A DNA stretch of 64,000 nt from Paracidobacterium acidisoli (lineage in GTDB: Bacteria > Acidobacteriota > Terriglobia > Terriglobales > Acidobacteriaceae), in assembly GCF_003428625.2 (NCBI RefSeq), contig NZ_QVQT02000004.1:496001-560000 (forward strand), given 5' to 3'. The notes beneath the pieces were generated by a model, which was not told the DNA's origin, made no database searches, and saw only the letters and a program-made list of their open reading frames with translations. Shown here one piece after another: positions 5,699-22,259 of the stretch (position 1 is its first letter; every line of letters begins with the position of its first letter). The position numbers and the translations under genes were made by a program.

Positions 5699-5706
5699 TC
5701 GATCCT

Positions 5707-6624: not shown

Positions 6625-8397
6625 TCAGCAAACGGGAAATGTCCCATTCAGGCCGCAGGGTTGAGAATTAAGCCATCCAGACGGATATACAGTGGTGTGT
6701 AATGCTGAACAAAACCGTCTCTGGCCACCATTACTGATACGCACACCCTCCCCATCCTCGCTGCCGTTGAAAATTTCAACGTTCCCGGCCACTTCGAGGA
6801 TCGGGCCTTCGGGTGTGCTCCTAGGCGTAAGTACAAGACGTTCCACATGTTTGCTGAGTGCCTGCCTCGCACCCTCTACATCGTCATGCAGGAGCTCACT
6901 GATCTCCGCAGCGCGACCGTACAGGAATTGCCGGAGATCTTCGATGGACAGCGCGAAGTCGCGAGGCTGATTCATCTCTGCCAGACGGTCATCCAGTTTG
7001 GCGATTTCCGCCTCAAGAGCCGCCAACTGGCTGAGCAGGCTCGGCGAATGGCCGAAGGCCGCGATCGCCTCCGTCACGTTGGAAACCTTCGTCTTCAGCT
7101 CCTGCCGCTTGGCTTGGAGGGCAACAACACCATCGGCGGCGCTCTCGGCCTGTTCTCGGAGTTGACGCAGCCGCTCCTGTAGCTGCTCCTGAAACCTCTC
7201 CAGAGCGTAATCGACCATTGCCGGCTGGAGGATTCTCCCGGTCAAGCCTTTCACAAGCTGGTCTTCGAGCCGGTCTTTCCGAATCAGCACGCCGTTCGTA
7301 CATACGCCACGGCCCTTGTGGGTCGGGCAGCCATATTTGACATAGCTCCTACGGCCATCGCCGGAGACGATGGTCATGCGCGAACCGCACTCGCCACAAA
7401 TCAGAAACCCGCTGAAGAGGTGCCGCGGCCCCCGTCCCCGCCTGGCTTGGCCTCCGAGACTGGTTGCGGTCCACCTCTCGCTCATCCGTTTGATCTGCGC
7501 TTCGACCCGCTCCCAAAGTTCGTCGGAGACAATCCGCCATTCGGGGACGTTCACCCGCCTCCAATCCGACTCAGGACGCGGTCTGCTGGTCTTCCGGCCC
7601 GTCTCAGGGTTCCGCTCCTTCTTCGTGCGATTCCATACGAAGACCCCCCGATACCGCTCATTGCGCAGCATCTCCCGGATGGACGACGGACACCACGCCC
7701 GAATCTGTCGGTTGCGAGGCGGCTGCGGCGCCTTCACGCCTTCTGCATTCAAAACCTTCGAAATGGTCGCGAGGCTGTTACCGTCCGCATACATGGTGAA
7801 AATTCGAATGACAATTGGAGCCTCCAGTTCGTCCGGCTCCAGCTTCACGCCACTAATTGCAGCCCGCCCGTATTTGCCAGTGCGCGTAGGATCTTCGACC
7901 GGCGTGTTCCGGTAGCCGAATATTTTTCCCCCTGGGTTCATGCCGTTCAGTGCGCGGCCTTCCTGACCGCGGTGAACCTTCTCGGCAACACTAACGAGGA
8001 ACTGCTCGTCCATCATGCCGTGAAGCGTCAAAAGAGGACGGGATGCCTTTTCCCTACAGTCCAGACGCTGGGCCACTGCATAGACGAACACGCCATGATA
8101 GAGCAGGACATCGTTCATGCTCAGAACATCAGGCAGGTAACGGGCAAGGCGCGAAGTGTCGTCCACGAGCAAACAGTCGAATGGTTTGGGTTTGGTTTTC
8201 GCCGCCACCATCAATCCGTTCAAAGCATCTCGCCCGGCCACCGTAGCAGCAGAACGGGCTTCATCGCCGCGAATAAAGTCCTCGACCACCGTCCAGCCCT
8301 GCTTCGTCGCAAAATCTTTGCAACGTCGAACCTGGTCATCGATTGAAGTAGGCCGCTGCAAATCCGAAGAAAATCTGGCGTAGATTGCGCAACGCAT
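6625..8397 (-). CDS. Large serine recombinase (site-specific integrase)
   Basis: 590 residues from the ATG at 8397, which has GAGG 8 bases upstream; an in-frame ATG at 8466 would add 23 residues but lacks a good ribosome-binding site. Domains in order: catalytic resolvase domain (YARFSSD, catalytic serine at residue 10, with conserved Arg in LVDDTSRLAR), recombinase domain (GKIFGYR region) with DNA-binding segments, zinc ribbon (CGECG then a second Cys pair near YGCPTHKGRGVC), a long coiled coil (LREQAESAADGVV onward) and a C-terminal tail. Large serine recombinases integrate phages and integrative elements at att sites. It is probably the integrase of the adjoining mobile region. A truncated copy of its 3' end is found at 61.6-61.9 kb. 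Confidence 0.9.
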   Translation of the reverse strand: MRCAIYARFSSDLQRPTSIDDQVRRCKDFATKQGWTVVEDFIRGDEARSAATVAGRDALNGLMVAAKTKPKPFDCLLVDDTSRLARYLPDVLSMNDVLLYHGVFVYAVAQRLDCREKASRPLLTLHGMMDEQFLVSVAEKVHRGQEGRALNGMNPGGKIFGYRNTPVEDPTRTGKYGRAAISGVKLEPDELEAPIVIRIFTMYADGNSLATISKVLNAEGVKAPQPPRNRQIRAWCPSSIREMLRNERYRGVFVWNRTKKERNPETGRKTSRPRPESDWRRVNVPEWRIVSDELWERVEAQIKRMSERWTATSLGGQARRGRGPRHLFSGFLICGECGSRMTIVSGDGRRSYVKYGCPTHKGRGVCTNGVLIRKDRLEDQLVKGLTGRILQPAMVDYALERFQEQLQERLRQLREQAESAADGVVALQAKRQELKTKVSNVTEAIAAFGHSPSLLSQLAALEAEIAKLDDRLAEMNQPRDFALSIEDLRQFLYGRAAEISELLHDDVEGARQALSKHVERLVLTPRSTPEGPILEVAGNVEIFNGSEDGEGVRISNGGQRRFCSALHTTVYPSGWLNSQPCGLNGTFPVC

Positions 8398-8498
8398 AGC
8401 TGGTTCCTCGGTGTCTAGCTTAGCTCTTAAGGAATCTCCCTGCGTAGTTTGGTTGCTGACCGCCATATCCCACAGTTCTCGCTCAATTCGGCATTTTC

Positions 8499-8856: not shown

Positions 8857-9011
8857 TATCTCCCTTCGTTGGTGAATTTTGCTCCCAGCTTGGGTGCGAT
8901 CTCGTTCATTCCTCTTCACATGTGGTCTTCGCTGACTCGGGCACGCGCTCGGGGTTTTACCGGCGTCCTGCAGCCTGCGGGCCTCTGCTTCGCTACGCGC
9001 CCTCCGGGTTT

Positions 9012-9115
9012 CGGCTTTCAGAAAATCTCCTGCAACGAACGCAAGACATTTTCCGAACCTTCCGAAAAAGCGCCCCTTGACCTTGGAAGCCTGACCCCTC
9101 GCGTCGCTTCGCGCA
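9012..9115 (+). promoter_or_regulatory. Hairpin-bearing leader A upstream of the DNA methyltransferase
   Basis: Shares three ordered blocks with the leader upstream of ssb (18613-18732): CGGCTTTCAGAAA (9012-9024), GAACCTTCCGAAAAAGCGCC (9055-9074) and CCTCGCGTCGCTTCGCGCA (9097-9115). The first and second blocks form the arms of a hairpin: 9017-9026 pairs with 9048-9057 except at one position. The last block ends 44 bases before the start codon, compared with 48 before ssb. Reading frames through the two copies differ relative to the downstream genes, so the conservation is probably at the nucleic-acid level. Confidence 0.6.
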
Positions 9116-9159
9116 GTGTGCCCCGACTCATCGGGAGACCACACAAACGGAGTGACGTC

Positions 9160-9867
9160 ATGAACACGAACACCATCCAACAGCAGCTTCCACTCAATAC
9201 CATCCTCAAAGGCAATTGCATCGAGAAGATGCACGAGATGCCCGCGAACAGCGTGGACTTCATCCTCACCGACCCGCCGTACCTGGTGAATTACCGCGAC
9301 CGCGATGGCCGCTCGATTCAGAACGACACCAGCAGTGAGTGGCTCAAGCCCGCTATGGCAGAGGCACATCACACACTCAAGCAGAACCGCTTGATGCTCT
9401 GCTTCTATGGCTGGACGAAAGTCGATGAGTTCTTTGCCGCATGGAAAGCTGCCGGTCTCCAGCCCGTTGGACATATTGTCTTTCGCAAGCAATACAGCTC
9501 GAAGAGCCGCTTTCTAAGCTATCGCCACGAGCAAGCCTATCTGCTGGCCAAAGGCCATCCGGCACTGCCGAAGCAGCCCATCGCAGATGTGATCGATATG
9601 CCATACAGCGGCAACAAGCTCCATCCGACACAGAAGCCCGTAGCAGCTCTCTCGCAACTGATCCGCTGCTTCACACTCCCAGGTGAGTTAGTCCTCGATC
9701 CGTTCGCAGGCAGCGGCAGCACATGCGCGGCTGCAATGCTGACTGGACGCAAGTACATCGGCATTGAGATGGACAACGCTTATCACGCGAATGCGAACGC
9801 TCGCATGGAGAGGATCAGAGAGAGGATCGCAACTCGCGGTCCTCTCCTTCATTCCCACGCGCGCTAG
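9160..9867 (+). CDS. DNA N6-adenine/N4-cytosine methyltransferase, beta-class
   Basis: 235 residues. The catalytic motif DPPYLVNY (38-45) comes before the AdoMet motif FAGSGST (182-188), the beta-class order seen in CcrM-, HinfI- and phage-type enzymes. HPTQKP (155-160) precedes motif I as usual. The ATG at 9160 has GGAG 7 bases upstream; the much longer open frame upstream runs through the conserved leader and is not used. There is no cognate nuclease nearby. In conjugative elements such solitary methyltransferases often act in anti-restriction at establishment, which fits the leader shared with ssb; this is inference. Confidence 0.88.
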   Translation: MNTNTIQQQLPLNTILKGNCIEKMHEMPANSVDFILTDPPYLVNYRDRDGRSIQNDTSSEWLKPAMAEAHHTLKQNRLMLCFYGWTKVDEFFAAWKAAGLQPVGHIVFRKQYSSKSRFLSYRHEQAYLLAKGHPALPKQPIADVIDMPYSGNKLHPTQKPVAALSQLIRCFTLPGELVLDPFAGSGSTCAAAMLTGRKYIGIEMDNAYHANANARMERIRERIATRGPLLHSHAR

Positions 9868-9980
9868 ATGATACGTGCGCGCTGGCCTGCGTCAAGGCGA
9901 GCTATCGGGCTGCGCTGTGATGATACGGCCTTGACTCCGGCCATCTCGCACGCTGTTTGCTGTTCATCGTGGGAATGAAG
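9847..9980. repeat. Nested inverted and direct repeats between methyltransferase and trb operon
   Basis: A 13-base perfect inverted repeat pairs CTTCATTCCCACG (9847-9859) with CGTGGGAATGAAG (9968-9980). Inside it lie an 8-base inverted pair, GTCAAGGC (9891-9898) and GCCTTGAC (9928-9935), and a direct repeat GATGATACG (9867-9875 and 9919-9927). The outer left arm overlaps the end of the methyltransferase gene. The structure may act as a terminator, attenuator or transfer-related site; no function can be assigned. Confidence 0.45.
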
Positions 9981-10040
9981 GGGTGTGTGCCTCCCTGCAC
10001 CGGACATTTGTCATGGCTTCAACGGGCATTTCGGAGGGTG

Positions 10041-10076
10041 TGCAGAACCTGCATACCCCCGACGAAATCTGCAATT
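10041..10076 (+). promoter_or_regulatory. 36-base TGCAG-rich element, copy 2 (reads rightward)
   Basis: Begins TGCAGAACCTGCATACCCCC and ends with an AATCTGCAATT half-site. It is the counterpart, in opposite orientation, of the element at 8821-8856. It lies about 90 bases before trbC. A wider palindrome with GGGT and ACCC arms surrounds the first two half-sites (10036-10058). It is a candidate operator for the transfer operon. Confidence 0.5.
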
Positions 10077-10163
10077 CCCAAGCCCCGCTTCCTCGCCTAC
10101 CTTCACCACAGCACGAACACCGAGAGTGGCCACTCGACGGTACATCACCCAAGGAGAACTCCT

Positions 10164-10487
10164 ATGGAGAGCACCCGTCCGTCGAAGCGCAGCCGTGTCC
10201 TTAAATGGGCGCGCATCCGTTACCTCACCCCGCTCCTCCTGCTGTCCGCCCTCCAGGTCTACGCCCAATCGACGGGCAGCGATCCGTGGGACAACGCAGT
10301 CAACGTCCTGAAAACCGCGTTCACCGGCACGATTGCCACGGGCCTAAGCCTGGTCGCCATCGTGGTCGGCGGCCTGATGTTCGCCTACGGCGAAGGCCAA
10401 TCCAAGAAGATGCTCGCCGGCATCGTCTTCGGCGTCGGCATGGCTATTGGCGCGGTCAATTTCATGAGCTGGCTCTTTCCGAGCTAA
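10164..10487 (+). CDS. trbC: TrbC/VirB2-like conjugative pilin
   Basis: 107 residues with a long signal peptide ending near VYAQ (residue 35) and two hydrophobic helices separated by a short polar loop (YGEGQSKKM), the standard architecture of VirB2/TrbC prepilins. It would be processed and assembled into the conjugative pilus. The ATG at 10164 has AAGGAG 7 bases upstream. It opens the trb-type operon, followed 16 bases later by trbD. Confidence 0.82.
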   Translation: MESTRPSKRSRVLKWARIRYLTPLLLLSALQVYAQSTGSDPWDNAVNVLKTAFTGTIATGLSLVAIVVGGLMFAYGEGQSKKMLAGIVFGVGMAIGAVNFMSWLFPS

Positions 10488-10490
10488 GAG

Positions 10491-10500
10491 AGGAGGTGAT
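10491..10500 (+). promoter_or_regulatory. Full-length Shine-Dalgarno sequence deciding a TTG start
   Basis: AGGAGGTGAT matches the anti-Shine-Dalgarno end of 16S rRNA over its whole length and lies 3 bases before the TTG at 10504. It supports that rare start codon for trbD. Confidence 0.6.
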
Positions 10501-10503
10501 CCA

Positions 10504-10818
10504 TTGTCTCAGCCAGCGGAACGTCGTGTGAACCCTGTCTTCAAGGCCATGAACCGGCCGCTGACTGTCCTGGGAGCAGAGCGGCGATTGTTCTTCGTCG
10601 CTCTGATCTCGGGAGGCTCCATCTTCTCCCTTTTGCACTCATTGGTCGGTGGACTCGCCCTGTTCATCGTGGGCGTCATCATCGCCCGCATTGCCACCAG
10701 GCATGACGTGGAGATCCTGCGCGTGCTGTTCAACAGCGGCAAATTCCGCAGACGCTACGACCCCATGAAGGCGGACGAGATGCAACTCCGCATAGCGAGG
10801 CGCGATGTACAAGGTTGA
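10504..10818 (+). CDS. trbD: TrbD/VirB3-like type IV secretion protein
   Basis: 104 residues, starting at TTG behind a near-perfect ribosome-binding site. The N-terminal PVFKAMNRPLTVLGAERRLF is typical of VirB3/TrbD, then come two membrane helices (about 28-65), and the tail (RYDPMKADEM) is like that of TrbD. The protein is an inner-membrane partner of the VirB4/TrbE ATPase. The trbE start lies within its last codons, a 14-base overlap that suggests coupling. Confidence 0.82.
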   Translation: MSQPAERRVNPVFKAMNRPLTVLGAERRLFFVALISGGSIFSLLHSLVGGLALFIVGVIIARIATRHDVEILRVLFNSGKFRRRYDPMKADEMQLRIARRDVQG

Positions 10819-13267
10819 GAACATCACGAAGGACTGGAAGGAAGCGGGACCGTTTGCCGCCCAGGTAAATCTCTACGGCTTCTGGGATGACCATAGCTTC
10901 CTGACCAAGAGCGGCGACCTCGGCACGGTCCTACGCATCGGCGGCATCGATTACGAGAGTCTCGACCACTCCGGCCTCGACTACGCGGTGAAGCGGCTGG
11001 AGGCTGCGGCCCGCTCCCTCGACGACAAGTGCCGTCTCTATCAGATTCTGTTCAAGCGCAACCGTCCGCAGATACCCCATGCGAAGTATGAGAATCCTCT
11101 CGTGCGCGCGGCTGTCGAGCAGCACAGCGCGTTCCTGGCATCCAAGGCCGACCGGCTTTATTCCATCGAAATCTTCTGGATCGTCATGGTGGACGGCAGC
11201 TACCAGAAGACCGGCCTGCTGCACGCGCTCGCCGGACTTCCAAAGCAGCCACGCGCCTCGCTCCGCGAGCTACGCGCTCTTTTTTCGGGCAACAAGGAGC
11301 GCTCTTTGCTCTATGAGCAGATCGAGCGCGACCGGATGCGGTTGCAGCAGAAAGTGAACAGTTTGAGTGGACAGCTAAACGACCTGATGACGGTCGAGCT
11401 GCCAGGGGCGGAGGAGACGTTTCGCATACTGCGCCGTCTCGTGAACCTCCGCCCCACCAAGATCGATGATGCTCCGCTCTCGGATGCTCGCCATCTTGAC
11501 TGGCAGGTCTGCGATTCCGAGCTGGAAGCCCATCGCGGCTATCTGCGTCTTGATGACGATTATGTCCGGGTCCTCACGCTTAAGGAGCTTCCCAGCGAAA
11601 CGCGCCCTCTGCTGCTGCATGGCCTGTTCGATGTGCCTGCCAACTTCCATGTCGTTACCGAATGGCATCCCGTCACCAACGAAAAGGCTCGCAAAGAGAT
11701 CGCGTCGCGCCGCCGGCACTATCACAACTCGAAAACCAGCTTTGTCTCGAATCTTCAGGACCGCCAAAACACCGGCAACCAGGACAACCTCGTAGATGAT
11801 TCCAAAGCCGCTGCCGTCGCAGAGCTTGGCAGTGCGCTTACGGCGTTGGGCATGGAAGGCAAGAACTTCGGCGAGTTCACTCTCTCGGTCGTCATCTACG
11901 ACGGTGATGCTGTGAAGGTCGAGCACACGGTCGCCGAGTTTCAGAAGCTGTTCACGCAGCATGACGGCCTGCTCTATGAAGAACGGTACAACCTGCTCAA
12001 CGCGTTCTTTGCCACCGTTCCCGGCAATAAACAGTTCAACCTGCGCAAGCAGTGGGCCCTCAATAGCAATTACGCCGACCTGTCGTTTCTGTTCACGGTC
12101 GATAGCGGCGGTCAGTGGAACCCTCATCTCGAACGCGAGTACCTCGCCGTCCTTGAATCGACGCACGGCACGCCGTACTACCTCAATCTCCACTCAGGCG
12201 ACGTGGCGCACACGCTGCTGCTCGGCGCTACGGGATCAGGCAAGAGTTTTACGCTGTCGAGCCTCCTGCAATCTGCGCAGAAGTATGACCCACTGACGTT
12301 CATCTTCGACCTCGGCGGCAGCTATGAATCACTGACGCGCGTGTTTAGCGGCACCTATCTCAACGTCGGCCTGAAGAGCCCCGGCTTCACCATCAACCCG
12401 TTTTCACTGGCGCCGACGCACGAGAACCAGAACTTCCTGTTTCTCTTCCTGCGCGTGCTCATCGAGGCTGGAGGCCGCTACGAGCTGACCACCGAGGACG
12501 AGAAGGCGCTTTTCTCCGCTATCGAGCGCGTGTATAAGCTGCCCGCCGAGATACGCACGCTCACGAACTTCGTATCGATCTTAGGTCCGCTCGGCGAGCG
12601 CCTCCATCGCTGGACCCAGGCTGGACAGTTCGGCTATCTCTTCGACAACGTCGAAGACACTCTTACCTTCTCGCGCTTCCAGACCTTCAACTTCGACGGT
12701 TGGGACAAGTACCCCGATGTGCTGGAGCCGGTGCTGTTCTACGTGCTGCAGCGCGCATCGACCGAGATCGAGAAACCCGCGAACACCGCCACCTTCAAAA
12801 TCTTCGTGATCGACGAGGGCTGGATCTTCCTCAAGAACCAGACCATTCGGGACTGGACCACCCGCGCCGAAAAGACTTGGCGCAAGAAAAACGCCGCCAT
12901 GATCCTGGCGACTCAGTCGGTGGTGGAACTGGCGTCGTCGGACATGCTGCACATCGTCAACGAGTCCTGCCCGACCAAGATATTCCTGTCGAACCCTAAC
13001 ATCGACCGCAAGCTCTATGCCGAAATCTTCCAGTTGAACGACACCCAGCTTGAGCTGCTGGAGTCGCTCGTGCCCAAGCGCGAGCTGTTGGTGATCCAGC
13101 CCCGCGGGACAAAGAAGCTGGTTCTCGAAGTCGACGCGCTGACCTACTGGATCGCCACCAACAACGCCCGCGACAACATCCGCAAACAGGATTACTTCGC
13201 CCGCTTCGGCCCGGAGCAGGGACTACTGCGTCTGGCCGAGGACTACCCCAACCCACTCAACCGCTGA
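10805..13267 (+). CDS. trbE: TrbE/VirB4 type IV secretion ATPase
   Basis: 820 residues, the usual length. The N-terminal half is the CagE/TrbE/VirB family domain (FWDDHSFLTKSGDLGTVLRI at the start). The C-terminal ATPase carries Walker A GATGSGKS near residue 474 and Walker B FVIDEGWIF near 669, followed by the TWRKKNAAMILATQS sensor segment. It is the conserved motor of conjugative type IV secretion and powers pilus assembly and substrate transfer at the inner membrane. All key motifs are intact. Confidence 0.93.
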   Translation: MYKVENITKDWKEAGPFAAQVNLYGFWDDHSFLTKSGDLGTVLRIGGIDYESLDHSGLDYAVKRLEAAARSLDDKCRLYQILFKRNRPQIPHAKYENPLVRAAVEQHSAFLASKADRLYSIEIFWIVMVDGSYQKTGLLHALAGLPKQPRASLRELRALFSGNKERSLLYEQIERDRMRLQQKVNSLSGQLNDLMTVELPGAEETFRILRRLVNLRPTKIDDAPLSDARHLDWQVCDSELEAHRGYLRLDDDYVRVLTLKELPSETRPLLLHGLFDVPANFHVVTEWHPVTNEKARKEIASRRRHYHNSKTSFVSNLQDRQNTGNQDNLVDDSKAAAVAELGSALTALGMEGKNFGEFTLSVVIYDGDAVKVEHTVAEFQKLFTQHDGLLYEERYNLLNAFFATVPGNKQFNLRKQWALNSNYADLSFLFTVDSGGQWNPHLEREYLAVLESTHGTPYYLNLHSGDVAHTLLLGATGSGKSFTLSSLLQSAQKYDPLTFIFDLGGSYESLTRVFSGTYLNVGLKSPGFTINPFSLAPTHENQNFLFLFLRVLIEAGGRYELTTEDEKALFSAIERVYKLPAEIRTLTNFVSILGPLGERLHRWTQAGQFGYLFDNVEDTLTFSRFQTFNFDGWDKYPDVLEPVLFYVLQRASTEIEKPANTATFKIFVIDEGWIFLKNQTIRDWTTRAEKTWRKKNAAMILATQSVVELASSDMLHIVNESCPTKIFLSNPNIDRKLYAEIFQLNDTQLELLESLVPKRELLVIQPRGTKKLVLEVDALTYWIATNNARDNIRKQDYFARFGPEQGLLRLAEDYPNPLNR

Positions 13268-13276
13268 AGGAGAACC

Positions 13277-14029
13277 ATGCGCTCATCACCCATCGTCCCC
13301 ATCCTGCTCGGCCTTGCCGCGACCGTCGCGCACGGCCAGCAGACTGCCCGCATCGTCAAGTACCACACCAACGACATCGTCAACATCCGCGCGAAGATGC
13401 GCTACACCACGCTTATCCAGTTGCCGCCCACCGAGAAGATCCTGGACGCTGCTACCGGCGATAAGGACTTCTGGATCATCGACAAGGTCGGCAACTACTG
13501 CTTCGTGCATCCGGCGAAGGAGGGCATTCACTCCAGCCTCGACCTCATCACCGACAGGGGCACGGTGTACTCGTTCACGCTCGACGATGTCGAGTCCGGC
13601 GATCCCGACCTGAAGGTCGTTATCGAGCCATCCGACTCATCCTCGCTGACTGCCTCCGCCAGCGCCAGCAAACTGGTTTCGGCCAGCGAAGTCGAGTCCG
13701 CCCAGGCGCAGGCGAAGCTGGCGGAGACCCGCGCAGCAGCAGCCGTCGATCAGTTCCGCTCGCGGTATCCGACCCAGGCACTGAAGTTCGACTATGCGTA
13801 TAAGAACGCAAAGCCGTTCGATGTCTCCGCTATCTACCACGACGACAAGTTCACCTACATCCGGTCCTCGGCCTCGGAGAAGTTCTCGGTTTATGAGCTG
13901 AAAGATAAGAAGCCCGACCTTATCACCTTCCAGCTTCAGGACGGCACCTACGTTCTGCCCACTGTCGTCGATAAGGGCTATCTGCAGATCGGCAAGCACA
14001 AGCTCACCTTCGAGCGGAAGGGTGAGTGA
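13277..14029 (+). CDS. trbG: TrbG/VirB9-like outer-membrane core component
   Basis: 250 residues with a signal peptide ending near AHGQ (residue 20). The region after it follows VirB9/TrbG: strand-rich N-domain (DIVNIRAKMRYTTLIQLP, then FWIIDKVGNYCFVHPAK), a linker rich in Ser, Ala and Gln, and the C-terminal domain (FDVSAIYHDDKFTYIRSSA, then YVLPTVVDKGYLQIGKHKL). VirB9 and VirB10 form the periplasmic/outer-membrane core. It begins 9 bases after trbE behind GGAG. Confidence 0.85.
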   Translation: MRSSPIVPILLGLAATVAHGQQTARIVKYHTNDIVNIRAKMRYTTLIQLPPTEKILDAATGDKDFWIIDKVGNYCFVHPAKEGIHSSLDLITDRGTVYSFTLDDVESGDPDLKVVIEPSDSSSLTASASASKLVSASEVESAQAQAKLAETRAAAAVDQFRSRYPTQALKFDYAYKNAKPFDVSAIYHDDKFTYIRSSASEKFSVYELKDKKPDLITFQLQDGTYVLPTVVDKGYLQIGKHKLTFERKGE

Positions 14030-14034
14030 TACCG

Positions 14035-15288
14035 ATGGCGGACGAAAAACAGACACCCGCTCCGGAGTCGCAGGTTGCGGCTCCCTCCACCGGCAACACC
14101 ACTGGCGTGAAAGATAAACGCATCAGGCCGGAAGGTGTTGTGCCGAAGCAGGCGCAAGGCTATGTGATGGCTGGCCTCGCCGTGCTCATTCTCATGGCGG
14201 TCATGTTCTCGAAGAACCATGCCAAGCCTGCGTCGAAAGAGGCCCCGGCCTCTCCGCTGTCCGCCTCCACGGACATGAACCAGCGGAAGATTCAGGAGCT
14301 GGAGCAGGATCTCAGCGCCGATCAGCGGCAGAGCCAGCTTCAGGCGCAGAAGCCCGGCGTCGATGGCGTTCCGGCCCCCGGCACCCCACCTATGAGCATG
14401 AGTACCGCGCAGCAGCCCGGCATGGCTCCTGCTACGCAGTTGCCGCCGCCCCCGGAGCCGCCCCGCGATCCTGTTGCGGACGCGGAGAAGGCGATGGCGT
14501 TCAAGGCCCGGTTTGCTTCCAATCTGGTCACTACGGAAGATGCTCTCGCACATCCGTCGCTCGACACGCTTGGCGTCAACGGCGACGCCACCGCGCACGC
14601 TTCGACGCTTCCGCCGACCGCGTCGGCGCAGCCGGCTCCCGCTGCTGCCACCGATGGTAAGAAGCGCGCACCCGAGGTGAATATCAACTCCGCCCACGGT
14701 CAGCCGTTTGTGGTTTTCGAGGGCACGAGCATCGACACCGTACTGGTCAACCGGCTGGATGGCGAGTTTGCCGGGCCGATCAAAGTCATGGTCACCGACC
14801 CCGTCTACAGCCAGGACAGGCAACATCTTCTGGTTCCCGAAGGGACGTTCATCCTTGGCGATGTCCAGAAGGTGGGGGGCCTCGGCCAGAAGCGCCTCGC
14901 CGTGACGTTCCACCGGATGCTTATGCCTGACGGCTATTCCGTCGATCTCGACCAGTTTCACGGTCTCGATCAGGCTGGAGCCACCGGCCTGAAGGACAAG
15001 GTCAACAACCACTACATGGAAATATTCGGGGCGTCGATTGCGCTCGGTGTGATCTCCGGCGCTGCCGAAGCTACCAGCTTCAACGAAGGCTACAACGAGA
15101 GCGGCAGCGAGGCATACAGGCAAGGCATCGCCTCCAGCCTCGCGCAGTCCGGCGCGACCGTGCTCGACCGCTTCATCAACATACCGCCCACCATCACCAT
15201 CCGCGAAGGTCACCGGATCAAGGTGTACATCACGCAGGACATGCTGCTGCCTGCGTATGAGAACCACACCATGCCCAGCAGCTATTGA
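14035..15288 (+). CDS. trbI: TrbI/VirB10-like core component
   Basis: 417 residues. The short cytoplasmic N-terminus is followed by one membrane helix (about 43-60, GLAVLILMAVMF), a Pro- and Gln-rich periplasmic linker, and a conserved C-terminal beta-barrel domain with VFEGTSIDTVLVNRLDGEF, LVPEGTFILGDVQKVGGLGQ and RIKVYITQDMLLP. This is the VirB10/TrbI layout that spans both membranes. A GTG at 14026 overlapping the trbG stop is an alternative start; it is closer to the AAGGG. Confidence 0.9.
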   Translation: MADEKQTPAPESQVAAPSTGNTTGVKDKRIRPEGVVPKQAQGYVMAGLAVLILMAVMFSKNHAKPASKEAPASPLSASTDMNQRKIQELEQDLSADQRQSQLQAQKPGVDGVPAPGTPPMSMSTAQQPGMAPATQLPPPPEPPRDPVADAEKAMAFKARFASNLVTTEDALAHPSLDTLGVNGDATAHASTLPPTASAQPAPAAATDGKKRAPEVNINSAHGQPFVVFEGTSIDTVLVNRLDGEFAGPIKVMVTDPVYSQDRQHLLVPEGTFILGDVQKVGGLGQKRLAVTFHRMLMPDGYSVDLDQFHGLDQAGATGLKDKVNNHYMEIFGASIALGVISGAAEATSFNEGYNESGSEAYRQGIASSLAQSGATVLDRFINIPPTITIREGHRIKVYITQDMLLPAYENHTMPSSY

Positions 15289-15348
15289 CCTCTGCTTGTT
15301 CTTACTTCGCGCCGCGCTTGCGTCGGCGCTCACCGAAAGGAACCCGCC

Positions 15349-16185
15349 ATGAAACTGCATCTTCCCGTCACCGCTCTCGTCCTCACGCTCGCGCCGCTGG
15401 CTCACGCGCAGTTCGGCTCCGGCATCGTCTACGACCCCACGCAGTCCGCCCATGCTCTTCAGCAGATCGAGCAGGGGTCCGAGCTCTATACGACAGCCGT
15501 CGATACCCGCAACCAGATCGTCACCATGTACAACCTCGCCTACCAGATGTCGCAGCTGCCGCAGAATCTGGAAGCACGCTACAAGGCCGACTGGTCGCAG
15601 TGGACCAGCCTCCAGGCCCCAGCCAACACCTATGGCAACACAGCGGCATTGGTGAATGCGCTGAACTACGGCGCCCTCACCAATGCTCAGCAGGGCTACA
15701 ACAGCGCCTACATTCAGGCACAGAGCTATCCCTCGGGCAATTACTCCTCGCTAGACGGCCGTACACAAGCAACGGTCGCCAATCAATATGCGACGTCCGA
15801 GCTGGCGCAGACGACCACGACCAACACGCTGGCCACTCTCGGCACGATCCGCACGAATGAACGGCAGTTCGCCACCAAATTGAGCAATCTCGATTCCGAT
15901 ACCTTCTCGACGGATTCCAGCCAGCAGACCGAGGCGGCGCTGCTCGGCAAGATCAACTCCGCAACTCTTCTCCAGATCCACTCGCAGCAGGACACCAATC
16001 AACTCCTTGCGGCCTCGATTCAGACGCAGCTCGTCGCGCAGAAACAGCAGATCGATGCGCAGAACCGGGCAATCAACAACGCCATTTACTTCCAGCAGAA
16101 CTTCGCTAACTCCATCCAGGGCGTAAACAACGGCGTCAGCGATTCGATGCACTCCATCTCGCTCAGCATCAACGGGAGCTACTGA
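15349..16185 (+). CDS. trbJ: TrbJ/VirB5-like protein
   Basis: 278 residues with a signal peptide ending AHAQ (residue 21). The rest is almost entirely helical and rich in Gln, Asn and Ala, including SAHALQQIEQGSELY and NQIVTMYNLAYQM, typical of TrbJ/VirB5 minor pilins that sit at the pilus tip. AAAGGAACCCGCC precedes the ATG. The next gene, trbL, shares one base with this stop. Confidence 0.78.
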   Translation: MKLHLPVTALVLTLAPLAHAQFGSGIVYDPTQSAHALQQIEQGSELYTTAVDTRNQIVTMYNLAYQMSQLPQNLEARYKADWSQWTSLQAPANTYGNTAALVNALNYGALTNAQQGYNSAYIQAQSYPSGNYSSLDGRTQATVANQYATSELAQTTTTNTLATLGTIRTNERQFATKLSNLDSDTFSTDSSQQTEAALLGKINSATLLQIHSQQDTNQLLAASIQTQLVAQKQQIDAQNRAINNAIYFQQNFANSIQGVNNGVSDSMHSISLSINGSY

Positions 16186-17006
16186 TGGGACAGAACATCA
16201 TCGCGCAGCTCGGCCAGGCCATCACGCAGTTGCTCTCCTCGCAGGGCAACATGCTCCAGTCCACGGGTCTCGATATCTTCCGCGGACTGGCTACCATCCT
16301 CATCGTCTGGTTCGGCGTGAAGGCCGCCCTGTCCTCTGTCCAGGGACATGGCGGCTTCCACTTTGCCAAGTTTGCCGACCTGCTGCTCATGATTTCGCTC
16401 GGCCTCGGCATGCTGACGTATTACTCGACACCGATCCCCGGGACCAGCTACAGCTTCTCCGACCTCGTTACGAAAGAGGGTTTGAGCATCTCCAATCAGA
16501 TTGAGTCCGATCAGACGCAGCAGATCGCGACGACCATCACCACAGCGGAAAATCAGCTAGGCGCTCCCCCAGGCAGCTTCAACATCCTCGAAGACCTCAC
16601 CTACTTATTGATCGTCGTCATCCTCGCGACGATGGAGGCTGCTGCCTTCTCCGTCATCGCATATGGGTATGTGGCCTCCGCTGTATGCGTGCTTATCGGT
16701 CCTGTGTTTATCCCCTGGTTCATTGTTCCCAAGATGGACTGGCTCTTCTGGGGATGGCTTAAGGCATTCATCGGTTTCACCTTCTATCAGGTGGTCGCCT
16801 CAGCCTTCGTGTATGTCTTTGCCCATGTCCTCTCCGGCATGTTTCAGACCATCGGCAGCATCACCATCGACAACGCGCTCACCATCCTACCGGCTCTGCT
16901 GATCACGCTGTCTGTCTGCATCTATGGCGTCTTCAAGATTCCTGACCTGACTTCATCCATCCTGGGCGGACGCACCGGCACCTGGGTCAACGTGTGGGGA
17001 GATTAG
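16185..17006 (+). CDS. trbL: TrbL/VirB6-like polytopic membrane protein
   Basis: 273 residues with five or six hydrophobic segments, among them FRGLATILIVWFGVKAAL, LLIVVILATMEAAAFSVI, VASAVCVLIGPVFIPWFIV and ALLITLSVCIYGVFKIP. TrbL/VirB6 proteins form part of the inner-membrane channel. The ATG overlaps the trbJ stop by one base. Confidence 0.82.
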   Translation: MGQNIIAQLGQAITQLLSSQGNMLQSTGLDIFRGLATILIVWFGVKAALSSVQGHGGFHFAKFADLLLMISLGLGMLTYYSTPIPGTSYSFSDLVTKEGLSISNQIESDQTQQIATTITTAENQLGAPPGSFNILEDLTYLLIVVILATMEAAAFSVIAYGYVASAVCVLIGPVFIPWFIVPKMDWLFWGWLKAFIGFTFYQVVASAFVYVFAHVLSGMFQTIGSITIDNALTILPALLITLSVCIYGVFKIPDLTSSILGGRTGTWVNVWGD

Positions 17007-17008
17007 TC

Positions 17009-17686
17009 ATGCCGACGATACAGAAGCCTGTCACCACGGGTGCGGGCCATAAGTTTCTGGAGCTCTACGCCGAGCCGGTCGTCACTAACAGCTACCTCAA
17101 AGTTGCGCTCCTCATCCTCTCCATCGTCGCGTTTGCGCTGCTTGCGCTCCTGTATCGCGCACAGACCGCTGCACTCCGGCTCAAGCCGGTCGTCATCGCA
17201 GTCTCCGATATCGGACGCGGCCAGATTCTCAACTACGACTCGACCGCCATCCCGGTCGAGCGTGTCAGCAAGTATTACCTCGCGCGTTGGGCCGAGCTTT
17301 ACTACGGTCGCAACCATGCAACTCTGCGTAAAGACTTCGGCGATTCGTTGAACTTCTTCTCTGATGAGAAACAGAACGCCACGCTCAACCAGGTCAAGAA
17401 AGACAAAACTCTCGACAACTTCCTTCTTGATCCCAGCGCACCCAACGTGGACGTCGTGATCAAAGCTGTGGTGCTGGAAGATACCCGGCAAGCACCCTAC
17501 CGTGCGCATATCGAGTTTGAGAAGGTCTTTTATTCGCCCGGTGACCAGCAGGAGCAGAGCCGCGAGCGGTGGACAGCAAACGTCATTTATGGCTTCCGTG
17601 ATTCCGTTCCGAACGTCATGCTCCTCACCAATCCACTCGGCCTCGTCATCAGCTACGTCCACGAAGACCAGGCATTCGGGAGCTGA
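17009..17686 (+). CDS. trbF: TrbF/VirB8-like inner-membrane protein
   Basis: 225 residues: short cytoplasmic N-terminus, one membrane helix (about 28-48), then a VirB8-type NTF2-like periplasmic domain with RVSKYYLARWAELYYGRNHA and, near the end, ERWTANVIYGFRDSVPN. The ATG at 17009 has GGGGAG 6 bases upstream. VirB8/TrbF is an assembly factor of the inner-membrane complex. It is unusual that trbF follows trbL; in IncP plasmids trbF precedes trbG. Confidence 0.85.
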   Translation: MPTIQKPVTTGAGHKFLELYAEPVVTNSYLKVALLILSIVAFALLALLYRAQTAALRLKPVVIAVSDIGRGQILNYDSTAIPVERVSKYYLARWAELYYGRNHATLRKDFGDSLNFFSDEKQNATLNQVKKDKTLDNFLLDPSAPNVDVVIKAVVLEDTRQAPYRAHIEFEKVFYSPGDQQEQSRERWTANVIYGFRDSVPNVMLLTNPLGLVISYVHEDQAFGS

Positions 17687-17689
17687 CTC

Positions 17690-18070
17690 ATGAGACCGAA
17701 GATCCCCGTCCTGCTTTACTGCGCCGACCGTGAGCTGCTCTCGGCTACTGCATTCGCGCTCCGTTTGCAGCCCTATGCTGTGACTGCTGTCGATGACAGC
17801 CGCAGCGCCACAGCCGTGATGATGTCAGACGATCTCGTTTGCGGCATCCTCATCCACGCGAGACAAGGCGACCTCGCAGGCAGATTGATTCACCGCCTGC
17901 TCGAAGCAGATTTGCACGTACCTGTGTTGCTGGTAGACCGTGCCGGCGACCTCGCACCGGTTCGCTACGCGGACATGGTGCTCTATGGCCGCAACACTTC
18001 GATGGCGCACATTCTAGGCGCGCTTTCCGTCCTGTGCGCGCGCAAGCGCGGGCCACGGAGCGCCGCGTGA
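17690..18070 (+). CDS. Receiver-like (CheY-fold) protein without a clear phosphorylation site
   Basis: 126 residues with an alternating strand/helix pattern resembling a response-regulator receiver: VLLYCADRELLSATAFAL, AVTAVDDSRSATAVM, GILIHARQGDLAGRLIHRLL, VPVLLVDRAGD and ADMVLYGRN. The usual strand-3 aspartate is replaced (GILIHAR), so phosphorylation is unlikely. It starts 3 bases after trbF and is part of the transfer operon. It may bind a partner or nucleic acid; the role is not known. Confidence 0.6.
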   Translation: MRPKIPVLLYCADRELLSATAFALRLQPYAVTAVDDSRSATAVMMSDDLVCGILIHARQGDLAGRLIHRLLEADLHVPVLLVDRAGDLAPVRYADMVLYGRNTSMAHILGALSVLCARKRGPRSAA

Positions 18071-18219
18071 GGTACCGTGGCAAGCTCGCATCCGATGGCC
18101 CCCACTACGAGGCGCTCGGTAAGTCGATGGTTGTTTCCGTCATGCGCTGGGTCGGGGAGCGCATCGCAGCCGTCGATGCCATTCTCCGTGACAGCCACGG
18201 CAGTGGGAGGTTCGGGTGA
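18067..18219 (+). CDS. Possible 50-residue protein coupled to the receiver-like gene
   Basis: A GTG at 18067 overlaps the preceding TGA by 4 bases. The peptide has one possible helix (GKSMVVSVMRWVGERIAAVD) and no recognised domain. The overlap and codon use are the only support. Confidence 0.35.
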   Translation: MRYRGKLASDGPHYEALGKSMVVSVMRWVGERIAAVDAILRDSHGSGRFG

Positions 18220-18827
18220 AGACAAGCGCGCAGATTCTCACGACATTGGCGCATACCTTCTTGTCGCGGAGACAGGCGGGATTTCTTCTTACCGTCACCA
18301 TTCCTGCATCGATGGGCTTCGTCTCGCCTACACCTCTATCGTCCGAAAGCAGGTTCTTCGCGTGGCTGAATGCCAGTAAGGATGCGGAGAAAGCGGTACA
18401 GTTCAGCCACTCTCAGCGCTTGCGACCGGACTTGGTGGCCGGCACAGACCGTTGGGCAGGCTTCTGGTTGCATCGGCATCCTGAACGTCAGCGAATCCTT
18501 CAGTCAGGTGTTTTCGTAGAGCCCCATTTTTCCCGCATTTTCCCTGCTCACCCTCGGTCACTCGCTTCTGTGCTTATCCCGCGCCCTGCGACACGGCGCG
18601 GCTCTGCTTTTACGGCTTTCAGAAATCTTTTCGGCAAACCTCCGCACAGAACACGGACAAAAAGATTTCTGAACCTTCCGCAAAAGCGCCGCTTGGCACT
18701 TGGGAGCGGGGCACCTCGCGTCGCTTCGCGCAAGAGTGTCCCGAGGGCAATCCGGGCAAATACAAACAAGGAGAAACACCATGGAACTCTATGTAAACGA
18801 GCAGAAACTGAAGGGCTTCGTCGGTAA
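18216..18827 (+). CDS. Doubtful ORF running through the ssb leader
   Basis: A GTG at 18216 overlaps the previous stop by 4 bases and has GGGAGG upstream, so translation may start here. The first third contains a hydrophobic stretch (AGFLLTVTIPASMGFV). The last third passes through the conserved hairpin leader of ssb and overlaps the ssb start by 47 bases, which is hard to reconcile with a conserved protein. It may be a real small gene with a drifting 3' end. If it is not translated, 18220-18612 holds no other feature I can support. Confidence 0.2.
   Translation: MKTSAQILTTLAHTFLSRRQAGFLLTVTIPASMGFVSPTPLSSESRFFAWLNASKDAEKAVQFSHSQRLRPDLVAGTDRWAGFWLHRHPERQRILQSGVFVEPHFSRIFPAHPRSLASVLIPRPATRRGSAFTAFRNLFGKPPHRTRTKRFLNLPQKRRLALGSGAPRVASRKSVPRAIRANTNKEKHHGTLCKRAETEGLRR
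18613..18732 (+). promoter_or_regulatory. Hairpin-bearing leader B upstream of ssb
   Basis: Carries the three blocks described for the methyltransferase leader: CGGCTTTCAGAAA (18613-18625), GAACCTTCCGCAAAAGCGCC (18671-18690) and CCTCGCGTCGCTTCGCGCA (18714-18732, identical in both). Here the first two blocks form a perfect 14-bp stem, TTCAGAAATCTTTT (18618-18631) with AAAAGATTTCTGAA (18660-18673), around a 28-base loop. The stem exists in both copies although the arm sequences differ. Confidence 0.65.
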
Positions 18828-19194
18828 GGATGCCGAGGTCTTTGCAACCAAGAACCAGTCGATCCTCGTGGTCTTTTCGCTGGCCACCAAGTCCGGCTAC
18901 AAGGACCGGAAGACCAACCAGTGGGTGAACAGGACCGAGTGGCACCGCATCGTTGCAGTCGGCGAACCCGCCAATCACGCGAAGGACATGAAGAAGGGTG
19001 ATTACGCCGAAGTCGTAGGCGAGACGCAGACCAATCCGCACGACAGAGAGATCGGGGACGGCAAGAAGAAGATCAAAGTCACCTTTCGCGACAAAGAGGT
19101 ACGCGCTAGCCTCGTCAAGAAGCTGGCAAAGCCCGAGAGCTCACACGCCGAGAACCTCGACGCCGAGCCGATTACGGAGGACGACGCGGCTTAG
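18781..19194 (+). CDS. ssb: Single-stranded DNA-binding protein
   Basis: 137 residues. OB-fold SSB with the expected order: LKGFVGKDAEVF, SILVVFSLATKSGYKDRK, WVNRTEWHRIVAVGEPA, MKKGDYAEVVGETQTNP, and an acidic tail (PITEDDAA). The tail lacks the full DDDIPF motif of chromosomal SSB, as often in mobile-element SSBs. AAGGAG precedes the ATG. SSB genes of conjugative elements are commonly expressed early in the recipient; the hairpin leader fits that. Confidence 0.9.
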   Translation: MELYVNEQKLKGFVGKDAEVFATKNQSILVVFSLATKSGYKDRKTNQWVNRTEWHRIVAVGEPANHAKDMKKGDYAEVVGETQTNPHDREIGDGKKKIKVTFRDKEVRASLVKKLAKPESSHAENLDAEPITEDDAA

Positions 19195-19225
19195 GCCGCG
19201 TTGTCCTCCCTCGGGAGGTGCAGCC

Positions 19226-19624
19226 ATGACTACACTCTTTGCCAATACAGTCACTCTGCGCGGGTTCCTCGGGAAAGATGCTGAGGCTCCCCCATCAGGT
19301 AACATCCGGAACGATTCATTCGCTGTTCTACTGCTGGCAACGGTCTCGGGCATTTGGGATCTCGGAGCCAATGAGTGGCATCCCCGCACCGACTGGCATC
19401 GCATCATCTGCCCCGGTCCGTTCTTTTGCGGTCTCGTGCGTGGGATGCGCCGCGGCGAATACCTCGAAATCGAAGGCGAGCTGCGCAATCAGAGCGATCC
19501 CCGGACGGTGGTCGTGGCTGGCGAGTTCCATTCTGTCAGCAAAAACACCGATACCGTCCATGCGGTCCGCATCCAGCGGCTTGATCGTCCCGATGCCCTG
19601 GTTGATTTCGGCGAGGACGGCTAA
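19226..19624 (+). CDS. Second, divergent SSB-like OB-fold protein
   Basis: 132 residues with the same framework as the preceding SSB: VTLRGFLGKDAEAPP, SFAVLLLATVSG, HPRTDWHRIICPGPF and MRRGEYLEIEGELRNQ. It lacks the acidic C-terminal tail and diverges strongly elsewhere, so it may bind ssDNA with other partners or regulate the first SSB. It is preceded by GGGAGGTG and lies 31 bases after ssb. A strong terminator follows. Confidence 0.78.
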   Translation: MTTLFANTVTLRGFLGKDAEAPPSGNIRNDSFAVLLLATVSGIWDLGANEWHPRTDWHRIICPGPFFCGLVRGMRRGEYLEIEGELRNQSDPRTVVVAGEFHSVSKNTDTVHAVRIQRLDRPDALVDFGEDG

Positions 19625-19644
19625 GGCCGTTCCTCGCCTCTCTT

Positions 19645-19676
19645 GCGGAGAGGCTAAAGCCTCTCCGCTTTTCTTC
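19645..19676 (+). terminator. Rho-independent terminator after the SSB pair
   Basis: GCGGAGAGGCT (19645-19655) pairs perfectly with AGCCTCTCCGC (19658-19668), followed by TTTTCTTC. The tail and stem are typical of an intrinsic terminator. Confidence 0.8.
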
Positions 19677-19706
19677 TGTTGGTGCCGAACCTCAGAAAGG
19701 AACCCG

Positions 19707-20003
19707 ATGTTTGCCAATGCTGTCTTCGTCGCCACGTTGATCTTTCTTGCGCTCGGCTTCTGGCTGATGCACGAGCTGCACTTCCTCGTACCGTGGCGGA
19801 GCCTCATCCTGCACCACTACTTCCAGAGCATCGCGCTTTACTGCGCTCTGCTCTTTGCCAACATCCTCGGCCTCACCATCTGGATTGAGCGTAAGTTCTT
19901 CCTCCGCGACACAGGCCGGAAACTCAAGCACCTCGACCAGGAGATACACAGTGGCCACTCAGAACTCTCAGAGGAGATCACCGCGCAATTCGGCGAAGAG
20001 TGA
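19707..20003 (+). CDS. Small two-helix membrane protein of the transfer region
   Basis: 98 residues from the ATG at 19707, with AGAAAGG upstream. Two hydrophobic helices (AVFVATLIFLALGFWLMHEL and SIALYCALLFANILGLTIWI) are followed by a charged tail. I do not recognise a family. It overlaps the next gene by 53 bases. It could be an entry-exclusion or mating-pair protein, but nothing specific shows this. Confidence 0.6.
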   Translation: MFANAVFVATLIFLALGFWLMHELHFLVPWRSLILHHYFQSIALYCALLFANILGLTIWIERKFFLRDTGRKLKHLDQEIHSGHSELSEEITAQFGEE

Positions 20004-20250
20004 ACGGAGCCGTCCAGCGATGGAGCCGATGCCGGAGCCATCCCCAGACTTCGATCACGAGGAATTTATGGACCGTTCCAATGATCATGTCGCCCGTGTC
20101 CGCGCGGCGCGGGATGTGGCTCAGCGCGAAATGGAATCGTTCGGCGATGTCTCCGAATACGACATCACCATGATTCGGGGGCAGCTTCGTGAAGAACCTG
20201 CACCCGGATCGCAGCCCGCACTCGATTTCAATCCACAGGAGCATGACTGA
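19951..20250 (+). CDS. Small hydrophilic protein of the transfer region
   Basis: 99 residues starting from a GTG behind AGGAG (7 bases). It is charged, with no hydrophobic stretch; the central region (DHVARVRAARDVAQREMESF) is probably helical. It shares its last base with the start of the next gene. No family recognised. Confidence 0.55.
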   Translation: MATQNSQRRSPRNSAKSERSRPAMEPMPEPSPDFDHEEFMDRSNDHVARVRAARDVAQREMESFGDVSEYDITMIRGQLREEPAPGSQPALDFNPQEHD

Positions 20251-21260: not shown

Positions 21261-21262
21261 CC

Positions 21263-22132
21263 ATGACGATAGACTTCATCGCTGCGCTCGAATCCCTCGG
21301 TTATACGGAACGCGAAGCCGCGTTTCTGTACCTCGTGGCCGCGCACTCAGGCTACTTCCTGCGCCGCCAGTTCAACTATTTCATCGACCGGCACAAGGGC
21401 TTTCTGGCCCAACGCTTCCTTGAAAAAGCACAGGACGCCGGCCATGTCGAAGTTATTGACTACGGCCAAGGCTTCTACATCTATCACCTATATGCGAAGG
21501 CGGTCTACAGGCTCCTCGGCAACGCCGAGTCGCAACACCGCCGCCGCAAGGCTGACGCATCCATCCGCTCGCGCCTGATGACGCTCGACTACGTCCTTGA
21601 GAACGACGGCGAACATTACCTTGTTTCCCATGAGGAGCGTCGGCAATTCTTTACTGAAGTCCATCGCGTCCGGCCAGAGTCGCTCTCCGATGACTCACAG
21701 TTCGCCGGTGTATTCCCGGTCTCTATCGCGGACCGCACCCAACCCTCAACATCGCTGGTCCGCTTCGTCTTCGTCGATGAGGGTCTTCTGACAACTCGAA
21801 AGTTCAATCGCTTTCTGACGGAGATGGCGCCGCTCTTTCATGAGCTGCGGACCTTCGAGCTGGTCTACGTCGCCGGCTCGGATTACAACTTCTCCGCTGC
21901 CACTCATGTGTTCCGGCATCATTGCCAGCCGCTCGTCCCGACGCAACAGAGAACTTTGCTGCCGGATTTCGAGCGTTCTTCGTCGCCCAATCGCTCGGCG
22001 CTTGACGCGCAGTTCACCACGCTGCTCTTTCACTACAGCTATCCACCCATTCAGCGTAGTGAGTCTCGGGGGTCTGTACGTGGGTCTGACAGCGGGTCTG
22101 CTCCATCGCAGCTAACTAATGGAGCGGCATAG
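21263..22132 (+). CDS. Hypothetical protein of the transfer region with N-terminal HTH-like segment
   Basis: 289 residues; the ATG at 21263 has GGAG 8 bases upstream. The N-terminal half (ALESLGYTEREAAFLYLVAA, GHVEVIDYGQGFYIYHLY) resembles a winged-helix module reading an open-frame signal, followed by an alpha/beta region (LVRFVFVDEGLLTTRKFNRF) and a disordered Ser-rich tail. The pairing with the preceding winged-helix gene (2-base gap) suggests a joint role. No named family recognised. Confidence 0.55.
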   Translation: MTIDFIAALESLGYTEREAAFLYLVAAHSGYFLRRQFNYFIDRHKGFLAQRFLEKAQDAGHVEVIDYGQGFYIYHLYAKAVYRLLGNAESQHRRRKADASIRSRLMTLDYVLENDGEHYLVSHEERRQFFTEVHRVRPESLSDDSQFAGVFPVSIADRTQPSTSLVRFVFVDEGLLTTRKFNRFLTEMAPLFHELRTFELVYVAGSDYNFSAATHVFRHHCQPLVPTQQRTLLPDFERSSSPNRSALDAQFTTLLFHYSYPPIQRSESRGSVRGSDSGSAPSQLTNGAA

Positions 22133-22247: not shown

Positions 22248-22259
22248 AGAGACCAACGC

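Follow-up and report, generated by a model that had tools for sequence, protein, structure and literature searches.

How two genes as different as those for a single-stranded DNA-binding protein (SSB, gene ssb) and a solitary DNA methyltransferase come to share a leader is the question raised by a 64,000-nucleotide (nt) stretch of the Paracidobacterium acidisoli genome, here called the window (positions 496,001 to 560,000 of NZ_QVQT02000004.1, which is contig C10 of the 15-contig, 5.0-Mb host assembly G000). Both genes, whose products help such DNA to establish itself in a new cell, belong to an integrative and conjugative element (ICE), which combines an integrase with type IV secretion genes and the coupling protein VirD4. 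An original prediction held that three sequence blocks precede each gene, that the leaders fold into hairpins whose structure is itself probably selected, and that they do the job of Frpo of the F plasmid, where single-strand promoters are established (PMC9849209). We find that the hairpin is selected on the minus strand, which is the template strand of both ssb and the methyltransferase gene, and that each leader is probably an Frpo-like promoter, or RNA-polymerase loading site, for single-stranded DNA (ssDNA).

A leader before two genes and its copies in other genomes

The two leaders and the genes behind them comprise the following features, where bit scores refer to a cmsearch with the covariance model R1, whose training set includes both copies:
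9007 to 9069, folded strand minus: hairpin 1 of the methyltransferase leader, with an outer stem, an AAGG/AG internal loop, an AT-rich inner stem and an apical GCGTTC..TTGC; -14.0 kcal/mol on minus versus -7.6 on plus; 74.9 bits on minus versus 15.5 on plus
9070 to 9159, plus: probable mRNA 5' untranslated region (UTR) of the methyltransferase gene, with the 19-base block (9097-9115) and a ribosome-binding region; the plus strand does not fold better in this copy
9160 to 9867, plus: solitary DNA methyltransferase (Pfam N6_N4_Mtase, 1.6e-35; NCBIfam NF010253, 300 bits with a cut-off of 244)
18608 to 18685, folded strand minus: hairpin 1 of the ssb leader, of the same architecture with a longer apical part; -18.7 kcal/mol on minus versus -15.3 on plus; 84.2 bits on minus versus 23.8 on plus
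18686 to 18780, plus: probable mRNA 5' UTR of ssb, which carries the 19-base block (18714-18732) and, ahead of the ATG, AAGGAG; -32.4 on plus versus -27.2 on minus (RNA parameters)
18781 to 19194, plus: single-stranded DNA-binding protein (Pfam SSB, 2.6e-12)

The three-block layout lies before both genes where it had been placed, and the 19-base identity ends 44 and 48 bases ahead of the ATGs at 9160 and 18781. The two leaders align over 79 bp with 84% identity (blastn within the window, E 1e-16), and GAACCTTCCGNAAAAGCGCC, with up to three mismatches, is found in the window at the two leader sites only, where shuffled sequences lead one to expect 0.02 sites. The stem of the ssb leader indeed consists of 14 perfect pairs (18618-18631/18660-18673), and the arms of the methyltransferase leader (9017-9033/9041-9057) are 17 nt long and 82% complementary. 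The arm sequences, which had been said to differ between the two copies, are in fact largely alike, and selection on the structure itself is demonstrated by the relatives and not by these two copies. When 230-nt segments are folded, the ssb leader is more stable than its shuffles on both strands (z -3.85 and -4.61), whereas the methyltransferase leader is so on neither strand (z 0.38 on plus, -0.98 on minus). No Rfam family matches the window at gathering score. A permissive search returns six matches up to E 5, all under that score, the best of which (mir-255, 29.3 bits with a gathering score of 50, on the minus strand of the ssb hairpin) we take to be a generic match to an AT-rich hairpin.

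Further copies, for which the prediction had recommended a search, were not found in the window and are present in related elements, so that the leader is represented by 37 distinct copies, all of them acidobacterial. These remain from 47 distinct pattern matches, of which nine were dropped as chance matches on non-acidobacterial or viral contigs, where the hairpin is formed in none, and one (L177) as a cut-off copy of leader L142. The next gene is of SSB type behind 24 of the 37, a methyltransferase gene behind 12 (11 by reading downstream and one, L144, by its place in element G116) and another gene behind one (L148), and the GAACC-to-ATG distance is 102-113 nt in 33 of them. A second element of the host genome, on contig C13, repeats the arrangement, with both leaders and both genes behind them. 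The prediction had staked itself beforehand on leaders not being absent from relatives, and they are present before both ssb and the methyltransferase gene in 8/8 elements compared over the methyltransferase-to-ssb span (the window, C13, G116, G129a, G069, G065, G220 and G140), each of which carries two. In L182 and L200, an SSB-like gene is preceded by an additional copy. Among the eight, the leaders of the methyltransferase genes in G220 and G140 (L163 and L167) escape the sequence pattern and are found by the covariance model on the same strand with 38.2 and 33.9 bits; their inner stems are largely changed and the hairpin is kept.

The short pattern GAACCTTCCGNAAAAGC occurs in 13 of 300 genomes of the family, in one of which (G035, L139) the hairpin is lacking, and the gapped pattern returns 34 stretches from the named genome collection, 28 acidobacterial and six from other groups; the acidobacterial carriers named are Edaphobacter, Granulicella, Silvibacterium and Acidobacterium sp. 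In viral contigs, the short pattern is found in 111 stretches and the gapped pattern in three, and none of these three forms the hairpin. The VirB neighbours of leaders L168, L171, L173 and L180 are 25-66% identical to the VirB genes of the window, and the hairpin is therefore common to deeply diverged elements. The leaders of L182 and L200 precede more distant SSB-like genes, 23-25% identical to the ssb of the window, and the further copy in L182 heads a unit in which an SSB-like gene (Pfam SSB 0.0028, under the cut-off) is joined by N4/N6 and C5 methyltransferase genes. Several elements can share one genome, as with the two in G000 and the three leader pairs in G129. In L148 and in L192 (Silvibacterium bohemicum), the leader is truncated right after hairpin 1 and followed by a gene of 355 amino acids (aa), which we take to encode an insertion-sequence transposase, as judged in L148 from the first residues.

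The strand on which the hairpin pairs

When hairpin 1 is folded with DNA parameters, the minus (template) strand is the more stable one in 37/37 copies, by 3.8 kcal/mol on average and by at least 0.9, compared with 0.47 (sd 1.14) in letter shuffles, and RNA parameters also favour the minus strand in all 37. The 826 stem cells comprise 710 Watson-Crick pairs, 92 G.T pairs on the minus strand, two on the plus strand (A.C on minus) and 22 others; with the near-fixed G.T column excluded, G.T pairs number 58 on minus versus two on plus. The copies are related, so that stem cells are not independent and the spread over columns is a safer measure than cell counts. G.T on the minus strand is found in 12 of the 23 pair columns, and the asymmetry is therefore not a single inherited change. 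Pair column 5/86, for example, is seen as U-A, G-U, A-U and U-G and stays paired in all 36 distinct rows. Changes on both sides of a pair affect 15 cells versus 2.9 in shuffles (reached by 0/500), a control that relatedness inflates, and 97.1% of cells are paired in the true register versus 36-64% in slid registers. The compensatory and wobble changes that the prediction needed to see in related elements are thus present. In addition, across 15 sources searched with the model, 17/17 leader sites have much higher scores on the antisense strand of the gene, 15 of them with sequence in the training set and two, the methyltransferase leaders of G220 and G140, without. Hairpin 1 is selected on the minus strand, and pairing on the template strand is what the idea of a single-strand promoter requires, so that the two agree. 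A strand-specific covariation test of this kind separates an ssDNA element from an mRNA hairpin or an operator, sequence alone sufficing.

A double-stranded operator, that is, an inverted repeat bound by a regulator of the element, would fit the strong sequence conservation of the arms and of the internal-loop bases. A duplex, however, is indifferent to the strand on which a G.T or an A.C mismatch lies, yet their ratio is 92 to 2, and the hairpin persists in the two copies whose stem sequence has largely changed, which leaves an operator very improbable. An ordinary mRNA leader hairpin (an attenuator or thermometer) shared by recent duplication is the least probable reading of all that we consider and scarcely credible: the better folding of the minus strand in every copy and the 92:2 asymmetry of G.T pairs argue that hairpin 1 is not an mRNA hairpin, and the copies precede unrelated genes, including ssb genes only 31-38% identical to that of the window (L168, L171, L180 and L191), which argues against a recent copy. 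What such an mRNA leader would explain is the stretch that separates hairpin 1 from the gene; this stretch bears the 19-base identity and folds better as plus strand in 30/37 copies and as minus strand in seven, the methyltransferase copy of the window among them. This lean is a weaker statement than that for hairpin 1, because the folds vary and the wobble counts are balanced. The region is probably an mRNA 5' UTR starting at the foot of hairpin 1. The third block is present as described, and it stands outside hairpin 1, in this distinct part of the leader with its lean to plus-strand folding.

Pairing on the minus strand would also be expected of an antisense RNA, if this strand were transcribed and the hairpin formed a regulatory RNA, or its end, directed against the leaders of ssb and the methyltransferase gene. 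G.T on the minus strand would then be G.U in RNA, in line with the preference of RNA parameters for minus in 37/37 copies, and the apical stem of the methyltransferase leader contains, on the minus strand, a weak terminator site of seven pairs with the tail GATTTTCTGA, from a scan that gives 16 sites in the region versus 12.8 in shuffles. The copies printed, however, have no T-run after the hairpin foot on the minus strand, the stretch downstream, where the promoter of such an RNA would have to lie, leans to plus-strand folding, the window gives no Rfam match at gathering score, and the likeness to Frpo would be left unexplained. We therefore regard an antisense RNA as improbable.

Likeness to Frpo and the proposed mechanism

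The acidobacterial hairpin resembles Frpo in model searches. R1, trained solely on the 37 acidobacterial hairpins, yields a single match over the whole 99,159-bp F plasmid (58412-58471, minus, 23.6 bits, E 5e-4), which lies upstream of ssb at 58643 in the F gene table and on the strand expected. Couturier et al. place Frpo2 at this site upstream of F ssb (PMC9849209). The model thus recovers Frpo2 without training on it, a match that an earlier mixed search under stricter filters had missed. On the IncI plasmids ColIb-P9 and pC23-89, R1 finds three matches each, two of which in each case are homologues of Frpo by blastn; these lie on the template strand, one before ssb and one before a gene near ardA, and score 13.7-15.4 bits. 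The sites matched on ColIb-P9 are presumably those named ssi2 and ssi3, and this plasmid reportedly carries single-strand promoters as well. With filters off over 45.5 kb of three leading regions, Frpo2 ranks first of 24 and the IncI sites take rank 3 and ranks 5-7. A sequence-only model built from the alignment behind R1 places five of the six Frpo sites at ranks 1-5 of 31 (E 0.04-0.3 each), with Frpo1 at rank 11. ColIb-P9 and pC23-89 are related, and these sites therefore amount to some three independent cases. When folded, five of the six enterobacterial copies were compared and 5/5 are more stable on the corresponding (template) strand. Within the phylum, a survey of 297 genomes gives strong matches in five, all of one family and including the host genome.

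Template-strand pairing in 37/37 copies and Frpo2 as the sole match of the model in F both speak for the Frpo-like job that had been proposed, whereas no promoter boxes are recognised. The -35 and -10 boxes that were to be looked for show no enrichment in a naive sigma-70 scan, in which the best match averages 6.3 of 12 in the leaders versus 6.7 in shuffles, and neither leader of the window contains a promoter-like site; F Frpo2 and Frpo1 score 6 and 7 of 12 in the same scan. TTG is found just above the inner stem in 28/37 copies. We considered and rejected a promoter in the 3' arm that would use TTGC as -35 and CCGAAA as -10, its spacing being variable and the box scan giving no enrichment.

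The scan is one of several observations that count against a single-strand promoter of the Frpo kind. The two leaders are 9.6 kb apart with VirB2-VirB8 between them and therefore do not form one compact leading region. The changed methyltransferase leaders of G220 and G140 are also matched by a sequence-only model (15.7 and 16.5 bits), so that enough sequence is kept. On ColIb-P9 and pC23-89, the Frpo matches have E values of 0.1-0.4 per record and a match to traS, which we take as chance, scores higher in each (16.9 bits), while F Frpo1 ranks 11 of 24 with nearly equal strands (10.8 and 10.7 bits). The phylum survey includes one genome of another family at 24.7 bits, above the score of Frpo2, which suggests about one chance match at that score per 300 genomes under strict filters. 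Likewise, blastn of both leaders against 72,556 plasmids, a collection that holds thousands of Frpo, gives no match at E 0.01 and no link to Frpo. Pfam Relaxase has no match in the whole genome, where Replic_Relax was the only other relaxase family searched for and gives a weak match below cut-off and outside the locus of the element. A candidate relaxase within the element, of 336 aa, has a poor AlphaFold model (predicted local distance difference test, pLDDT, 47), and a PDB profile search with it yielded nothing usable.

This candidate (20250-21260) is the first of two conserved proteins without family that lie between the second SSB gene and VirD4 (20250-22132). Its highly conserved EHD, PD.RI and HEDIEVLTAAY motifs make it a candidate without support from Pfam, PDB or fold; a permissive Pfam search of its family gives Replic_Relax in one of eight members at E 1.3, and a MOBC-like nuclease fold, considered from motifs, is unsupported and not claimed. 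Searches alongside those for the relaxase identified no origin of transfer (oriT) in the element. No relaxase could be named, and we therefore infer the transferred strand from the covariation itself.

The strongest rival to a single-strand promoter is a single-strand origin or priming site, where the hairpin would load RNA polymerase or primase for second-strand synthesis and its position before genes would be secondary. The strand requirement is the same as for a promoter, single-strand origins are known in ICEs such as ICEBs1 (PMC4595007), and Frpo reportedly serves both transcription and primer synthesis. A pure origin, however, would need neither the near-constant distance to the start codon (102-113 nt in 33/37) nor a pairing with the same two gene types, at two or more per element in the eight, and both therefore weigh against it. 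We consider a pure priming site unlikely, and the two functions may be joint.

For the preferred reading, a promoter or RNA-polymerase loading site active on ssDNA, we suggest the following course of events. The element would be transferred as a single strand, such that the minus strand, which is the template for transcribing both genes, enters the recipient and folds into a hairpin of 63-84 nt with an AT-rich duplex stem and an internal loop. RNA polymerase of the recipient would bind this local AT-rich duplex and transcribe outward, past the base of the stem, into whichever of the two genes follows, which would allow SSB and methyltransferase to be made before a second strand exists; transcription of the ssb unit would end at a terminator-like hairpin after its second SSB gene. 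Conversion to double-stranded DNA would then remove the hairpin and turn the genes off. The analysis establishes the hairpin, its conservation on the template strand, its constant place before these genes and its likeness to Frpo; the transfer of the template strand, the reading of the hairpin by RNA polymerase and the off-switch by duplex formation are what we infer. The pattern suggests that soil Acidobacteria, too, switch on genes from incoming DNA while it is single-stranded.

More tentatively, Frpo may be no enterobacterial invention and instead belong to one ancient family of single-strand promoter hairpins. Present in Proteobacteria and Acidobacteria alike, this family would serve conjugative elements at their early genes, and a covariance model could find it where BLAST fails, a reading that we hold with some reserve. 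Its proposed common core would be CGNAAAAT-TTTT-(loop, often with GTTC)-AAAA-ATTTTNTG, with a G.T wobble at the foot of the stem. If this is true, expression from incoming ssDNA would be a general programme of conjugation; if the promoter reading is confirmed, the generality of single-strand transcription becomes testable by search.

The surrounding element and comparison with known systems

Beyond the leaders, the element comprises:
6625 to 8466, minus: large serine recombinase, probable integrase (Pfam Resolvase, Recombinase and Zn_ribbon_recom)
10164 to 25572, plus: type IV secretion genes, namely VirB2, B3, B4, CagX/VirB9-like, VirB10, VirB6 and VirB8, then VirD4 and VirB11 (Pfam matches)
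19226 to 19624, plus: second SSB-like protein (ssb2) of the ssb unit (Pfam SSB 0.0039, below cut-off)
19645 to 19668, plus: terminator-like hairpin followed by TTTTCTTCT, at the end of the ssb-ssb2 unit, with the longest stem of the 16 such sites

The full order is serine recombinase, methyltransferase, VirB2, B3, B4, VirB9-like, B10, a protein in the VirB5 position (with no Pfam match), B6, B8, ssb, ssb2, two proteins, VirD4 and VirB11. The ssb unit thus sits among type IV secretion genes, and the gene order is the same in relatives. A gene similar to ssb2 follows ssb in 7/8 of the other stretches compared and is not called in G069, and the terminator-like hairpin is alignable in the eight stretches compared.

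Other features of the locus are noted here in their own right. Between the end of the methyltransferase gene and VirB2 (9846-9981) lies a long inverted repeat, CCTTCATTCCCACG / CGTGGGAATGAAGG, with arms 108 nt apart that enclose a further repeat around GCCTTGAC; the eight elements compared can be aligned over this region, which could be an oriT, another single-strand element or a 3' UTR. A perfect 23-bp inverted repeat with arms 40 nt apart (22162-22247) occupies the gap before the VirD4 region. Upstream of ssb, 18077-18219 is a probable remnant of the C-terminus of a C5-cytosine methyltransferase, the long form of which lies upstream of ssb in L182 and the C-terminal part in L004. Beside the recombinase, on the minus strand (3825-6537), are genes for a D12-class adenine methyltransferase, a ParB_N-domain protein and a PRTase-CE domain protein, possibly cargo. 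Near the second element of the host genome, a frame that repeats VSIHAPARGAT (L153:1017-1913) resembles a translated array of clustered regularly interspaced short palindromic repeats (CRISPR).

What appears to be new is an Frpo-type element, as judged from sequence, in chromosomal ICEs of Acidobacteria, far outside the enterobacteria and unlinked to Frpo by BLAST; the kind itself is already known. A literature search, whose hits were partly viewed and whose coverage left most subscription journals and bioRxiv outside, gave no report of single-strand promoters in Acidobacteria. A 2024 survey of leading regions began from five known Frpo/ssi sequences and proceeded by BLAST together with -35, -10 and UP boxes in four islands (PMC11541004).

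The closest known counterpart is Frpo of F. Frpo1 and Frpo2 likewise form a hairpin on the template strand for ssb, with an outer stem, an internal loop and an AT-rich inner stem (AAAAT..TTTT/AAAA..TTTT), and Frpo2 shares the G.T at the foot of the inner stem. Frpo, too, is present twice per element. It lies near ssb and near the DNA methylase encoded in the leading region of F, which is 54% identical over 209 aa to the methyltransferase of the window and lies 3.8 kb from ssb in the F gene table. In contrast, the acidobacterial hairpin has a much smaller internal loop and a conserved apical GCGTTC..TTGC, its copies reside on ICEs with VirB/VirD4 secretion and show no recognised promoter boxes, and Frpo1 resembles it weakly. 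The Frpo/ssi repeats of the IncI plasmids also lie before ssb and a second gene near ardA, are matched by the model on the template strand and are more stable on this strand in 3/3 copies folded, but their model scores are weak.

The 25 listed plasmid relatives of the methyltransferase are 52-58% identical to it. Among the matches listed, the plasmid records with a relative (at least 5000 in total) are nearly all enterobacterial, and 3989 of 5000 are typed conjugative. A Paracoccus homologue has no hairpin match nearby (L222) or in the rest of its 2.2-Mb record under strict filters. M.EcoGIX and M.BceJIII are plasmid-borne solitary methyltransferases as well, specific to single strands, and Fomenkov et al. 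describe M.EcoGIX as modifying single strands, with its gene in the part of the plasmid that is transferred early and positioned so that Frpo can drive it (PMC7736820). The identities given here are with the listed plasmid methylases and with that of F, and activity of the acidobacterial enzyme on single strands would follow by analogy. The single-strand origin (sso) of ICEBs1 is a further single-strand element in an ICE (PMC4595007), but it is an origin of second-strand synthesis, likened to the acidobacterial leaders by description and not by sequence or position.

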